DNA of 64,000 bases, taken from Pedobacter rhodius (lineage in GTDB: Bacteria > Bacteroidota > Bacteroidia > Sphingobacteriales > Sphingobacteriaceae). Both the position numbers and the translations under genes were made by a program. This document shows, piece by piece, positions 24,076 to 57,290 of this stretch. The stretch lies in the NCBI RefSeq assembly GCF_027213645.1, contig NZ_JAPWGL010000005.1, forward strand, positions 186,001 to 250,000. Direction: 5' to 3'. Numbering within the stretch: the first letter of the stretch is position 1; every line of letters begins with the position of its first letter. The notes under the pieces were generated by a model that was not told the origin of the DNA, ran no database searches, and saw only the letters and a list, made by a program, of their open reading frames with translations.

Positions 24076-25038
24076 ATGCAGCAAATAAAAACATCATTCG
24101 ATTTTGAAAAGCCTATTGCCGATTTAGTTCAGCAGATAGAAAAGGTTAAACAAGTTGCCGAAAAGACTAAGGTAGATATGTCTGCCACTCTGGATGAACT
24201 TGATGTCAAATTAAATGACACCACAAATAACTTATATAAGAACTTAACGGGTTGGAATAAGGTTCAAATGAGCCGCCATCCGGACAGGCCGCAAACACTT
24301 GATTACATCAATATGATTTGCGATGATTTTATTGAGTTACATGGCGACAGAACCGTTAAAGATGATAAAGCAATTATCGGTGGTTTCGCGACGATTAATG
24401 GTCAAACGGTAATGGTTATTGGTCACCAGAAAGGAAAAAATACCAAAGAGCGTCAGTATCGCAACTTCGGTATGGCAAATCCTGAAGGTTACCGTAAGGC
24501 CCTACGTTTAATGCGTTTGGCAGAAAAGTTTAATAAGCCCGTAATTTCTTTTATTGATACGATGGGCGCTTACCCTGGTTTAGAAGCCGAGGAACGCGGA
24601 CAAGGAGAAGCCATTGCCAGAAACTTACTTGAAATGTCTGTATTACGTGTGCCGATTATCTGTATTGTTGTAGGTGAAGGTGCATCGGGTGGTGCCCTGG
24701 GTATCGGTATCGGTGACAAAGTTTATATGCTGGAGCATACCTGGTATTCTGTTATCTCCCCTGAATCTTGTTCTTCTATCTTATGGAGAAGCTGGGATTT
24801 TAAAGAGAAGGCCGCCGAATGCTTAAAACTGACTTCCGATGATATGTTTGGCAACAAGCTGATCGATGGAATTATCCCTGAGCCTTTAGGTGGTGCACAT
24901 CAGGATCCTGAATTAATGGGACAAACCATGAAAGATTATATTTTAAAGGATTTAGCTTCTTTAGGAAAGTTAAAAACAGATAAACTTATCGAACAAAGAA
25001 TTGATAAATTCTGTGCGATGGGTGTTGTAAACGAATAA
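24076..25038 (+). CDS. accA: Acetyl-CoA carboxylase carboxyltransferase subunit alpha
   Basis: The 320-residue subunit joins AccD to move CO2 from biotin to acetyl-CoA, the first step of fatty-acid synthesis. It starts with the N-terminal helix ([16 protein letters not shown]). The crotonase-like carboxyltransferase core contains [43 protein letters not shown] and [12 protein letters not shown]. Length is normal. accD is not in the window, which is common since the two are often unlinked. A terminator follows. Confidence 0.97.
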
Positions 25039-25096: not shown

Positions 25097-25123
25097 TATT
25101 TTCCCCGTCACGCTGAACACTGC

Positions 25124-25425
25124 GCTCCCGCTCGTTTGTAACGAGCGGGTAAATAGCAAATCGTATTTTACGATATAATTTGTTTAAATACCAGCGACTA
25201 AGTCGCAAAGTTATAGTGCGCTCGTTAGAAACGAGCGCAGGCAATTGTGCTCCCGCTCATTTCTAATGAGTGGGTAAATAGTAAATCGTATTTTACGATA
25301 TAATTTGCTTAAACACCAGCGACTAAGTCGCAAAACTATAATGCACTCGTTAGAAACGAGCGCAAGCAATTGTGCTCCTGCTCATTTCTAATGAGTGGGT
25401 AAATAGTAAATCGTATTTTACGATC
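25124..25425. repeat. Tandem 125-bp hairpin units, left arm of the RAYT array
   Basis: Units begin GCTCCCGCTC at 25124 and 25249, and as GCTCCTGCTC at 25374, exactly 125 bases apart. The third is cut off by the transposase gene. Each full unit holds four hairpins: CCCGCTCGTT-TGT-AACGAGCGGG, ATCGTATTTTACGAT, GCGACTAAGTCGC and GCGCTCGTT-AGA-AACGAGCGC. Base changes between copies often keep the stems (CTCATT with AATGAG). Confidence 0.9.
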
Positions 25426-25980
25426 TCAATAGACATTTAATAATTCAACTTTCAAAATCCCTGGTAAACTTGTGTAATTTGAAGCTGAACTATATAAATA
25501 ATGCTCAGGTTCGGAAACTATACCTGCCCTGACCGGATTTTGATGAATATAGTTCAATTTTTGAAATGTGAAATCAGGTGTTATTAATTCCACGGCATGA
25601 TAGCCATCCTGCCAGACTTTATAATTTTCTATTCTTTCCAGATATCTTCCTGCAAATTCAAATTTGTTTAACAACCATTTTTTTCTGCTCTCATTGCTTT
25701 CGCTGATTTCTTTAATTAATAATTTATTGGTAAACTTTTTAAAATCTCTAACTATCTCAAATAATTTTAAGCTTCCTTCAGAAGATGCGATTAAATGAAT
25801 ATGATTTGTCATTAAGCAAAATGCATAAAGTTTTAAACCTTTATGTTGTTGACAGTATTTTATTGAATCTATGATGATTTCTTTGTATGAATTACGGGTA
25901 AATAAGTCTATCCAATCAACAATAGTGAAAGTAAGGAAGTATATCCCCTCAGGAGCGGTTGCTTTATATTGATCTGACAT
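25426..25980 (-). CDS. REP-associated tyrosine transposase (RAYT, Y1 HUH family)
   Basis: This 184-residue protein is a single-strand DNA transposase-like enzyme of the TnpA-REP group. The HUH metal motif is HIHLI in CLMTNHIHLIAS at about 58-69, and the catalytic Tyr is in KLNYIHQNPVRAGIV at about 143. YHAVELI and the terminal YSSASNY are also typical. It lies inside an array of the hairpins that such enzymes recognise, and its stop codon falls at the edge of a unit. A small hairpin CTACTA-AATA-TAGTAG (25981-25996) is immediately before the start codon. These proteins are usually domesticated single-copy genes, not transposons that move themselves. Confidence 0.92.
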   Translation of the reverse strand: MSDQYKATAPEGIYFLTFTIVDWIDLFTRNSYKEIIIDSIKYCQQHKGLKLYAFCLMTNHIHLIASSEGSLKLFEIVRDFKKFTNKLLIKEISESNESRKKWLLNKFEFAGRYLERIENYKVWQDGYHAVELITPDFTFQKLNYIHQNPVRAGIVSEPEHYLYSSASNYTSLPGILKVELLNVY

Positions 25981-26014
25981 CTACTAAATATAGTAGATTA
26001 TTATGAAATTTTTT

Positions 26015-26267
26015 GCGACTAAGTCGCAAAGCTATAATGCACTCGTTAAAAACGAGCGCAAGCAATAAGAACTAAATATGATGCTAAATGCTCCCGCTCG
26101 TTTGTAACGAGCGGGTGTATAATTAATCGTATTTTACGATATAATTTGTTTAAGCACCAGCGACTCAGTCGCAAAACTATAATGCACTCGTTAGAAACGA
26201 GCGCAGGCGATAGTGCTCCCGCTCGTTTGTAACGAGTGGGTAAATAGTAAATCGTATTTTACGATAT
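26015..26267. repeat. Tandem 125-bp hairpin units, right arm of the RAYT array
   Basis: The array resumes with GCGACTAAGTCGC at 26015, in the middle of a unit. Further units start GCTCCCGCTCG at 26090 and 26215, again 125 bases apart. The gap between the two arms is the transposase gene, and about 20 bases of a unit (ATAATTTGTTTAAA and neighbours) are missing at the junction. Confidence 0.9.
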
Positions 26268-26335
26268 AAATAAAACTTCCTAAGTCTTTTCCGTCGCTTT
26301 TATTTTAAGACTTCGCAGGTTTGGCTACCAACAAA

Positions 26336-26385: not shown

Positions 26386-29300
26386 TTATTGCCCTGGTTG
26401 CTGACCAAAGTAACCTGAAAATCTTGCTTCAAGTCCTGCAAATTGTTTTTCCAGTTGGGCGCTCACTTTCGCTTGTCCCATTGCTTTGGATACTTTCACC
26501 ATCCTATCCAGGTAATACAATCCGGTTTGAACATTTTGCGTACCGGTAATGCTTCCTTTCGATGCGGAAATATCAGCCAGATAAGTCAATTCTTTTTGGA
26601 TGTAATCACCGGATTTTAACAGGATATCGTTGGCTCTTGCGGTTTCACCAAGTTTATATAAGTTTTCGGCCATATAGTATTTAACAACAACAGTTCTGAT
26701 ACCGAAAAACTTATCAGGCATAACATTAAAATATTTATCCACTACTTTCTTTGCTTCATTAACCTTACCTTCTTTGATTAAGCTTCCGGTTAAGCTGCTG
26801 AAGAGGTTGGTGAAAATAAATGTATCATCTGAAGACTGCGGATCCAGATACTTCGCCGTTTTGATGTTACCCCATTTAAATTTCTCCATTACATTTTTGT
26901 AAAGAACAGGTGTGTTCAATAACTCTTCTCTGTCTTCATATGCGGTTGTATCTGTTTTCAGCGGCAATAAGCGTAATGCTAAACCTTCGCTGTATAAATA
27001 TTTATCTAAACCGTTATATTGCTCGGAAGGAACTGTCGAAGCGAAATAAATAGGACGTTTCCAGTTATTATGAGCAAGAATATCAAGCATTGCCAATGTC
27101 CCTTTAGTTACATAGCCTTTGTTAAACTTCCACTGCATTTCAGGAGCTATTTTAGCCGCATCAGCCGCAGGTACAGTTCCTGTACTGATCACTTCCTGAG
27201 GGTTAATGGTCAGTTTAAAGTTTTTAGTTGGCAAGAAATTCGATTTTGTACCATCCTGCATGGCTACCTTATCGTCAGGGCTGTCAGATAACAACAAATC
27301 AACAACATTTTTAAGTTCTACATTACCGGCAATTTTATAGTCATCGTAAGGCATTACATCACGCACGCCCTGCACAAATTGCGATTCTTTCATCGAAATC
27401 GGTAAAGGTTCAGAATCATTTTGTTTCTGCTTCATGCCATTCAGGTACCAATCTGTATCGAACAAACTTAAGTTTACAATACGCACATCCGGACGAACTC
27501 TTTCCACTTCCTGGATATACCAAAGCGGGTAAGTATCATTATCACCGTAAGTAAATAAGATTGCATTTGGCGCACAAGATTGCAGGTAATCTAAAGCAAT
27601 GTCGTGGGCAACCAATTTGGTAGAACGATCATGATCATCCCATCCCTGTTGCGCCATAATAACCGGCGCGGCAAATAAACCAATTACAGAAGCTGCAATT
27701 GCACCGGTTGTAGGCGTAAGTTTCTTAAACAGCCATTCTTTTATGGCTAATACCCCGAGACCAATCCATATGGCAAAAGCATAGAACGAGCCCACGTAAG
27801 CATAATCACGTTCGCGGGGTTCTAAAGGTTTCTGATTCAGGTATAATACAATTGCGATACCCGTGAAGAAAAATAATAAGCCGACAACACCAGCATCTTT
27901 TTGATTACGGCCAAAGTGCCAGATAGCACCCATTAAACCAATAATTAATGGTAAGAAGAAAAACCTGTTATAAGCTTTATTGTCGACAGTTGATGGCGGC
28001 AAATGACTTTGGTCGCCATGCCATACCGCATCAATTGGTTTAATGCCACTTAAAGATGTACCTTCAAAACCACTTCCTTGTCCTTGTTCATCGTTTTGGC
28101 GACCAACGAAGTTCCAGCCAAAATAACGCATGTACATATAACCAATTTGATAACTGAATAAAAACCCAACATTATCAACCAGATTTGGCTTTTTGCTGTC
28201 ATCCAGATGCATCCACTCTTTGTAAAACTCGGCGTGCTTTTGGTCATCGCTATACATACGAGGTAAAAATGTATTATCAGCATATTCGTAATCGTTCTTT
28301 TTACCTGCAACTTCATACTTTTCAGCACCTTTTCTCCAGATTGTTTTTCCTTCCGTTACGCCGGTTCTTTCTGAGTTATAGTTGGGGCCGAATAGCAATG
28401 GACGATCGCCATATTGCTCGCGGTTTAAATAACTTAAGAAAGAGAAAGCATCTTTCGGAGCGCTGTTATTTAAGTTTGGGTCTGCTTTTGCTCTGATGAT
28501 AATCATTGCAAATGAAGCATAACCAAAAATGATTAAAACGGTAGAAATCAGGCCTAAGTTTAATAATTTCTTTTGATGTTTGATTGAATAACGAATACCC
28601 CAAACAAATGCAGCGATAATTAAAATAGCGAAGAATAATACACCCGTTCCGAAACCTAATCCTAATGTGTTAACGAAGAATAAATCAAAGTAAGCACCAA
28701 ATGAAACTAGGTATTGAATAATTCCGTATTGGATTACACCTAAAATTAATATACCAACTATCAGGGTTTTGAAAATGCCCGAAGTGGTTGCTTTACCTGT
28801 TTTTTTGAAATAATAAATAAAAGCAATTGCCGGGATGGTTAGCAAGTTTAAAAGGTGAATACCAATTGATAAACCCATTATATATGCAATAAAAAGCAAC
28901 CATCTGTCAGCTCTGGGCTCATCAGCATGTGCTTCCCATTTTAAAATGCCCCAGAATACGATAGCTGTAAATAATGATGATTGCGCATAAACTTCAGATT
29001 CTACCGCTGAAAACCAAAAACTATCAGAAAAAGCATAAGCTAAAGCGCCAACTACACCTGCACCCATTATGCTGATAAGTTGACCGGTTGTTAATGCTTC
29101 GCCGGCTTTTACTAAAGTCTTTTTTGCCAGTGCAGTAATGGTCCAGAATAAGAATAATATGGTCGCTGCACTAGACAAAGCAGAACCAATGTTCATCCAG
29201 TAGGCAACTTTGGTTACATCTCCAAATGCAAACACAGAGAAAAATCTTTGTAGCATTAAAAATAGTGGTGCCCCAGGCTGGTGAACAACCTGCATCCTTA

Positions 29301-29427
29301 ATGCAGATGCTATAAACTCGCCGCAATCCCAGAAACTAACTGAAGGTTCTAAGGTTAAAACGTAAGTTATTGTCGCTATTAAAAAGCAAACCCAGCCCGT
29401 TATATTGTTAACTTTTGAATAATTCAT
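26386..29427 (-). CDS. DUF2723 membrane glycosyltransferase-like protein, copy A
   Basis: This 1013-residue inner-membrane protein has about a dozen hydrophobic segments in its first 580 residues and a soluble, TPR-like C-terminal part. The family core is at the N-terminus: GWVCFLIATITYVLTLEPSVSFWDCGEF is at residues 11-38, with the acidic SFWDCGE loop expected at the catalytic site. The human relative TMEM260 (DUF2723) is a protein O-mannosyltransferase, so a role in protein O-glycosylation is plausible by homology. It follows a close paralogue with 230 bases between. Substrate and donor cannot be read from sequence. Confidence 0.85.
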   Translation of the reverse strand: MNYSKVNNITGWVCFLIATITYVLTLEPSVSFWDCGEFIASALRMQVVHQPGAPLFLMLQRFFSVFAFGDVTKVAYWMNIGSALSSAATILFLFWTITALAKKTLVKAGEALTTGQLISIMGAGVVGALAYAFSDSFWFSAVESEVYAQSSLFTAIVFWGILKWEAHADEPRADRWLLFIAYIMGLSIGIHLLNLLTIPAIAFIYYFKKTGKATTSGIFKTLIVGILILGVIQYGIIQYLVSFGAYFDLFFVNTLGLGFGTGVLFFAILIIAAFVWGIRYSIKHQKKLLNLGLISTVLIIFGYASFAMIIIRAKADPNLNNSAPKDAFSFLSYLNREQYGDRPLLFGPNYNSERTGVTEGKTIWRKGAEKYEVAGKKNDYEYADNTFLPRMYSDDQKHAEFYKEWMHLDDSKKPNLVDNVGFLFSYQIGYMYMRYFGWNFVGRQNDEQGQGSGFEGTSLSGIKPIDAVWHGDQSHLPPSTVDNKAYNRFFFLPLIIGLMGAIWHFGRNQKDAGVVGLLFFFTGIAIVLYLNQKPLEPRERDYAYVGSFYAFAIWIGLGVLAIKEWLFKKLTPTTGAIAASVIGLFAAPVIMAQQGWDDHDRSTKLVAHDIALDYLQSCAPNAILFTYGDNDTYPLWYIQEVERVRPDVRIVNLSLFDTDWYLNGMKQKQNDSEPLPISMKESQFVQGVRDVMPYDDYKIAGNVELKNVVDLLLSDSPDDKVAMQDGTKSNFLPTKNFKLTINPQEVISTGTVPAADAAKIAPEMQWKFNKGYVTKGTLAMLDILAHNNWKRPIYFASTVPSEQYNGLDKYLYSEGLALRLLPLKTDTTAYEDREELLNTPVLYKNVMEKFKWGNIKTAKYLDPQSSDDTFIFTNLFSSLTGSLIKEGKVNEAKKVVDKYFNVMPDKFFGIRTVVVKYYMAENLYKLGETARANDILLKSGDYIQKELTYLADISASKGSITGTQNVQTGLYYLDRMVKVSKAMGQAKVSAQLEKQFAGLEARFSGYFGQQPGQ

Positions 29428-55104: not shown

Positions 55105-55435
55105 GTACACAAACGCCGATTTCCGCAGATATTGTCCGGAATCATGTAATTTGCAATGGTTTTTTTTAGTACTCCAACTTTCTTAGGTGTCTAAGGTGGT
55201 GAAAAATTTTTAGCCCGCAGATAACGCCGATTTCCGCAGATATTTTCCGGAATCATGTAATTTGCAGCGGTTTTTTCTTAGTGCCTCCAGCTTTCTTAGG
55301 TGTCTAAGGTGGTGAAAAATTATATTGGCCCGCAGATAATGCTGATTTCCGCGGATATTTTTAGGAATCATGTAATTTGTAACGGTTTTTGTTAATACCT
55401 ACAATTTCCTAAGGTGTTCGAGTGATGAAAAATAT
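55105..55435. repeat. Three tandem ~113-bp repeats
   Basis: GCCGATTTCCGCAGATATT occurs at 55115 and 55226, and as GCTGATTTCCGCGGATATT at 55341 (spacing 111 and 115). Each copy goes on through GGAATCATGTAATTTG and ends with CTTTCTTAGGTGTCTAAGGTGG, the last copy being more diverged. The closing word TCTAAGGTGG is shared with 48671-48990. The M28 gene's promoter must lie in or after the third copy. Confidence 0.85.
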
Positions 55436-56968: not shown

Positions 56969-57040
56969 ATAATTATTCCGTCATTTCGACCGTAGTGGAG
57001 AAATCTTTGTAATGTAATTCGCCTGTACCGGTACACAATT
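56969..57040. other. Spacer with a half element GTCATTTCGACCGTAG
   Basis: The end of the M28 gene is followed by a GTCATTTCGACCGTAGTGGAG half of the palindromic family seen at 19047 and 50014. Nothing else is recognised before the hairpin array. Confidence 0.5.
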
Positions 57041-57290
57041 AGATTAACGATTTAATCGTAATTAATAGCGCAATCGCTAAAAGCGATTAATTATAAGCAT
57101 GTTCGTTACAAACGAGCTTGCGAAAATTGTACAAATCTGTTGTAATATTCGAAACGCTACGGCTTAAGAACCGCTTGCGCTCGTTTTTAACGAGTGCAGA
57201 ATAGATTAACGATTTCATCGTAATTAATAGCGCAATCGCTAAAAGCGATTAATTATTAACCGCTAGTTACAAACGAGCGTGCGCAAATTG
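57041..57290. repeat. Second hairpin array, related to the RAYT-associated units
   Basis: Two copies of an ~88-bp block (57041 and 57203, 162 apart) hold ACGATTTAATCGT, AATCGCTAAAAGCGATT and GTTCGTTACAAACGAGC, with GCTCGTTTTTAACGAG between them. The reverse complement of the third hairpin (GCTCGTTTGTAACGA) is identical to a core of the 25-kb units. No transposase gene is near. Confidence 0.8.

Follow-up and report, generated by a model that had tools for sequence, protein, structure and literature searches.

Related known systems include the REPINs of Pseudomonas (Bertels and Rainey 2011, PMC3116915) and the BIMEs of E. coli, in which an inverted pair of REPs constitutes the mobile unit. These systems share dispersed intergenic copies, a single-copy and vertically inherited RAYT, and local tandem runs with the Pedobacter locus presented here, but they lack its two hairpins per REP, and carry the GTAG that is missing here; the spacer of the Pedobacter units also varies in length. 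The known TnpAREP enzymes act on single-stranded DNA in a strand-specific manner, cut between C and T beside the REP, and use GTAG as a guide (PMC8266576). TnpAREP subclass 2.6, which equals Bertels group 5 and occurs mostly in Bacteroidetes, carries the motifs NH[LIV]H, WQ, and YIH[QN]NP, and the main text of Quentin et al. (2018, PMC6006769) describes its flanks as "atypical" and "weaker" in secondary structure and as lacking GT[AG]G. The locus also has features in common with IS200/IS605 elements, namely the HuH-Y1 enzyme family and subterminal hairpins.

The 125-bp Array and Its RAYT Gene

Four-hairpin units spaced at 125 bp and a RAYT gene occupy positions 25124-26270 of the window (the whole 64,000-nt stretch of Pedobacter rhodius DNA that was analysed; Table 1). 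Two convergent genes flank the array, which follows directly on the terminator-like hairpin of accA; we take these neighbours, recognised by their sequences, to be accA and a gene for a DUF2723-like membrane protein. Direct repeats of 184 nt start at 25123, 25248, and 26089 with a left-side spacing of exactly 125, and to the right of the gene, the unit starts 26090 and 26215 are again 125 apart. TRF delimits an array at 25124-25424 with a period of 125 and 92% matches. The exact 125-base repeat on both sides of the gene, claimed in a sequence-only reading of this DNA, is thus confirmed, with the tandem copies being about 90% alike. The rhythm is interrupted at the RAYT gene (26063 to 26090). 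In the gene's direction, the array reads as a half-unit [B'A'], a complete unit [ABB'A'], the gene-bearing [AB-RAYT-B'A'], and two further complete units. The gene is flanked by hairpins B' and B, and its TGA stop (25426-25428) lies one base from the B' stem, that is, at the unit boundary, as had been proposed. An Rfam search of the region gave no real match, only chance hits below the gathering scores. Elsewhere in the window (55112-55417), there is a 115-bp tandem repeat of 2.7 copies.

Table 1. Features of the RAYT locus and of the second site in the window (window coordinates; hairpins of units in the order of the gene).
Feature	Position	Strand	Details
accA (presumed)	24076-25038	+	Left neighbour of the array
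Complete REPIN unit	25124..25242	-	A 25217-25239, B 25194-25206, B' 25160-25174, A' 25127-25149; ssDNA fold -33.2 kcal/mol, z -8.5
Complete REPIN unit	25249..25367	-	A 25342-25364, B 25319-25331, B' 25285-25299, A' 25252-25274; minimum-energy ssDNA fold is one long hairpin, z -5.7
RAYT-bearing REPIN	25374..26063	-	A-B-RAYT-B'-A', 690 bp; REP models match both ends
REP downstream of RAYT gene (right end, from its own foot)	25374..25424	+	GCTC foot, A' 25377-25399, B' 25410-25424
RAYT gene	25426..25980	-	184 aa; HuH motif NHIH, WQ, Tyr motif YIHQNP
REP upstream of RAYT gene (left end)	26015..26063	-	GCTT foot and A hairpin 26038-26060, B hairpin 26015-26027
Complete REPIN unit, upstream of RAYT gene	26090..26208	-	Repeat, folding, REP-model matches
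Half unit A'B', right end only	26215..26265	+	REP-model match
DUF2723-like membrane protein gene (presumed)	26386-29427	-	Right neighbour of the array
Dispersed copies, same REPIN family	57041..57284	+	Decayed unit 57041-57122, complete unit 57173-57284

The RAYT open reading frame matches Pfam Y1_Tnp (2.1e-8) and passes the NCBIfam model NF047646 (REP_Tyr_transpos) with 99.8 bits at a cut-off of 80, as do its relatives from other orders. A sequence search of solved structures gave only a weak match, to the IS200-like transposase 2f4f (E 0.45), which adds nothing on family membership. The gene is present in a single copy, its paralogs being 50% and 38% identical; it is flanked by inverted REPs that are dispersed genome-wide, and its synteny and dN/dS indicate vertical inheritance. 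The model score and the dispersed REPs bear out the claim of a RAYT gene accompanied by a repeat family of its own. By its motifs and phylum, the protein fits subclass 2.6. The flanking repeats likewise lack GT[AG]G, the foot being GCTY. The idea of a distinct REPtron type in Bacteroidota holds for the phylum; the type is not wholly new, as subclass 2.6 is already listed in the main text of PMC6006769. All three motifs of the subclass, in their loose form, were found in just 50 of 108 relatives, which implies that some relatives fall outside subclass 2.6 or are variants.

Two further RAYT or RAYT-like genes are present in the same genome. The product of one (L023, G000:C1:997645-998172) is 50% identical and has its own family of approximately 125-bp units with 37 matches; a gene-less unit of this family shares 47 nt with the RAYT 3' end, the last codons and stop included, and looks like a deletion derivative of a RAYT-bearing element. 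The other, a RAYT-like gene (L024, G000:C1:606427-606885) with 38% identity, lies amid a different repeat of about 150 bp (TGGTTGGTGGCCCACCAACCA palindrome) with 9 genome matches.

Anatomy of the Repeats

When three 119-nt units were folded as single-stranded DNA, they formed the four hairpins described earlier or, in the second unit, one long hairpin in which the two REPs of the unit pair with each other (z-scores from -5.7 to -8.9, with none of 200 shuffles equally stable). Double-change cells in the stems numbered 21 and 19, versus shuffled means of 6.4 and 5.0, and 94% and 91% of stem cells were paired, versus 22-50% with the partner slid. The stems covary, and the compensatory changes noted in the sequence-only reading are real.

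Each half-unit comprises a GCTY foot, hairpin A (about 10 bp, with a CTCGTT/AACGAG core), a linker of about 10 nt, and hairpin B, a stem of 5-7 bp whose sequence varies (GCGACTTAGTCGC, ATCGTATTTTACGAT, CACGATTTTATCGTG, GCGATTAACTATCGC, ACGACTGTGTCGT). The linker often repeats GCYT ahead of hairpin B and in many copies contains ATAG a few nucleotides before it. Hairpin B was inner to A in 26 of 31 tag-oriented A hairpins and outer in 7, at a chance rate of 13%. With copies oriented by B alone, the information content climbs at precisely the G of GCTY, going from 0.34 to 1.37 bits, and this abrupt onset of conservation shows that the element has sharp, inverted termini. The left- and right-end REP consensus sequences differ, yet are related. 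A canonical GTAG REP has GT[AG]G 0-2 nt 5' of the hairpin; here, GCTY precedes hairpin A instead.

Since half-units (A and B alone) occur dispersed, the four-hairpin unit, seen earlier as one composite, is best read as two inverted two-hairpin REPs. The half-unit is therefore the basic module, and each unit is a REPIN composed of an inverted pair of bipartite REPs. The 39 candidate REPIN units extracted measure 90-139 nt, with a spacer of about 40 nt down to approximately 0. The lower extreme is seen in Pedobacter sp. Leaf41 (L071, 2605-2950 and 3689-3910), in which the units are just 96 bp long, the spacer is gone, and one arm is common to both small hairpins, only one of which can form at a time.

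Dispersal in the Genome

The genome of 4.68 Mb contains 21 matches to a 184-nt query, and the core palindrome CTCGTTN{1,5}AACGAG occurs at 31 places, versus 0 for the reversed control. Covariance models of the REP ends detected 42 (R1) and 37 (R2) modules genome-wide, in overlapping sets; the units are not unique to this locus, and about 40 copies is a modest number for a REP family. The genome's best R1 match, at 76.4 bits, is the upstream end of the RAYT-bearing REPIN (26009-26063), and R2 matches its other end (25374-25429). Both whole four-hairpin units (L006, L007) and two-hairpin half-units (L005, L010, L012, L013, L018, L020) are dispersed. The strict tandem order of the sequence-only reading applies locally, to the array; elsewhere in the genome, many copies stand singly or in pairs.

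The copies at 57.0-57.3 kb of the window are flanked by genes for a peptidase and a CBS-domain protein. Of 9 relatives, 8 lack this pair at the corresponding intergenic site and the ninth retains a worn trace of it, which indicates that copies are gained at new places. A 30-bp repeat at window 56979-57010 (CCGTCATTTCGACCGTAGTGGAGAAATCTTTG) is very abundant across the Pedobacter genomes searched and is unrelated to the RAYT family.

Inheritance of the Gene and Turnover of the Repeats

All 16 Pedobacter orthologs (73-80% identity) lie in the accA-RAYT-DUF2723 interval, counting those with one neighbour visible at a contig end, and a 61% identical relative in Mucilaginibacter gossypii also adjoins accA. 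The median dN/dS among the orthologs is 0.06; RAYT is under strong purifying selection. Where Pedobacter genomes lack this RAYT gene, the accA interval is empty in some, holds REPINs but no gene in G021, G025, and G034, and contains half-units and eroded remains of a single A hairpin in G051, G058, and G009. In the nearest relative by accA (G003, 98% identical), RAYT is dead, owing to a stop, a frameshift, and a deletion taking out the tyrosine region, and 3 REP matches are found versus 42 in the genome of the window. Among 60 genomes of the genus, 21 have both RAYT (other RAYT lineages included in the count) and REPs, 5 RAYT only, 3 REPs only, and 31 neither (Fisher p = 1.5e-8, a value from which shared ancestry was not removed). 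Two of the three genomes with REPs and no RAYT at the threshold used (G021, G025) carry them at the accA locus, and repeats without RAYT are also expected following RAYT loss. RAYT kept its genomic place while the repeats came and went.

Arrangement and Generality in Bacteroidota

The order AB-gene-B'A' was found at 12 of 12 Mucilaginibacter and Hufsiella loci read, as well as in the window and at three other loci (L043, L044, L070), and at six (L041, L042, L069, L074, L075, L077), the RAYT gene lies between two complete units. The place of RAYT in the heart of a REPIN is conserved and probably ancestral. Because the B/B' position is conserved in Mucilaginibacter and some Pedobacter, RAYT is regarded as the core of a REPtron and not a chance insertion. 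The description of the gene as inserted in its own array stands in so far as the gene lies inside one unit, between B and B'; the possibility that it simply landed in a pre-existing array is improbable given the conserved order and was rejected.

Across 108 Bacteroidota RAYT loci, the mean number of hairpins within 150 nt was 1.2-2.2 per side, versus 0.16-0.27 in shuffled flanks. An additional inner-side hairpin, no more than 40 nt away, accompanied 25 of 39 A hairpins in Sphingobacteriaceae (outer side 14, where neighbouring units also lie), 10 of 17 in Bacteroidales (outer 2), 4 of 5 in Cytophagales (outer 0), and 1 of 42 in Flavobacteriales. The two-hairpin REP appears common in the first three groups, and the single hairpin in Flavobacteriales. 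Outside Sphingobacteriaceae, the G-T wobble of hairpin A, which is an A-C mismatch when read on the opposite strand, favours the gene strand upstream (27 vs 7) and the other strand downstream (31 vs 6); the wobble is illustrated by GCGCGGATTTGCAATCCGTGC (Flavobacterium) and TGCGCTCGTTTCTAACGAGTGCA (Pedobacter). Such polarised wobble, pointing into the element, marks one strand per REP as functional. The polarity is weaker in the flanks of Pedobacter and other Sphingobacteriaceae, where neighbouring units mix both orientations.

The motifs, the phylum, the flanking repeated structures without GTAG, and the copies elsewhere in the genome agree with subclass 2.6 as presented in the main text of PMC6006769. 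The strong 10-bp hairpin A, the bipartite REPs, and the GCTY foot differ from the structures described there, and the polarised wobble and the REPINs around the gene go beyond that description. A literature search for two-hairpin Bacteroidota REPs gave nothing beyond Quentin et al., whose Table S1 may show some. The double-hairpin anatomy, absent from the main text of that paper, is new here, and this REP shape has hardly been described before.

Interpretation of the Locus

The locus is real and well supported as a REPtron, and its subclass is known but has been little described. With considerable confidence, we read it as a subclass 2.6 REPtron whose stationary, domesticated RAYT most likely moves bipartite-REP REPINs, the array representing local amplification. 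It is very unlikely to be an IS200/IS605-type insertion sequence with the hairpins as its left and right ends and the gene-less units as deletion derivatives. The Y1_Tnp domain, the hairpins at both ends of the gene, and, in the paralogous L023 family, the 47 nt that a gene-less unit shares with the RAYT 3' end, as a deletion derivative would, speak for such an element. However, the protein scores only 24.6 bits against NF033573 (transpos_IS200), below the cut-off of 55, the gene is single-copy and stationary across the genus, and the ends are inverted copies. The ends of IS200/IS605 elements are not inverted copies. IS200/IS605 membership was rejected on the model score, the inverted ends, and the synteny.

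The units could also be functional intergenic elements (terminators, mRNA 3' stabilisers, or DNA-binding sites) with RAYT as a passenger, roles that have been assigned to REPs elsewhere (PMC3733652) and that the position between convergent genes just past the accA hairpin would suit; this is highly improbable, as copies have come and gone at orthologous sites, the repeats track RAYT across genomes, and the wobble polarity points to one functional single strand per REP. For the array only, slippage or unequal crossing-over might have produced the tandem repeats while RAYT spread just single REPINs. The close similarity of the tandem copies at exactly 125 bp, together with a tandem copy at G000:C7:130.8 kb (L005/L009) that is 92 bp long and made up of a gene end and a half-unit, favours such an origin, which we consider somewhat unlikely, since arrays recur around the RAYT genes of other species with different sequences; it would be compatible with the RAYT reading.

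In the REPtron reading, RAYT would be a domesticated HuH-tyrosine single-strand nuclease with a fixed position on the chromosome. Its most likely target is the foot-first REP strand as single-stranded DNA, comprising the GCTY foot, hairpin A, the ATAG-containing linker, and hairpin B. By analogy with the known TnpAREP enzymes, GCTY may serve in place of GTAG as the guide, and the cut, which in the RAYT family proceeds through a 5'-phosphotyrosine, may fall at CT in or near the foot. Such cleavage could lead to duplication and movement of the REPIN (A-B...B'-A', roughly 90-140 bp); the steps after binding are those that we infer. The RAYT gene occupies the B/B' spacer of one REPIN, around which local amplification may have built the 125-bp tandem array. 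Hairpin B may belong to the binding site, confer specificity, or be what is left of a second module of foot and hairpin. More tentatively, Bacteroidota RAYTs might use a recognition code of their own, in which a strong GCTY-foot hairpin with polarised wobble is read together with a fast-varying second hairpin, possibly a specificity or guide element, with the hairpin pairs keeping the different RAYT lineages of one genome separate.

RAYTs rank among the best cases of transposase domestication in bacteria, yet how these enzymes recognise their repeats is understood only for the GTAG-type REPs of Proteobacteria. Together with its relatives in four orders, this locus provides a clean comparative set for a direct test of the recognition rule: the enzyme family is the same throughout, GTAG is absent, and the hairpins number one or two. 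The set also contains one species that is a natural knock-out and has few repeats.
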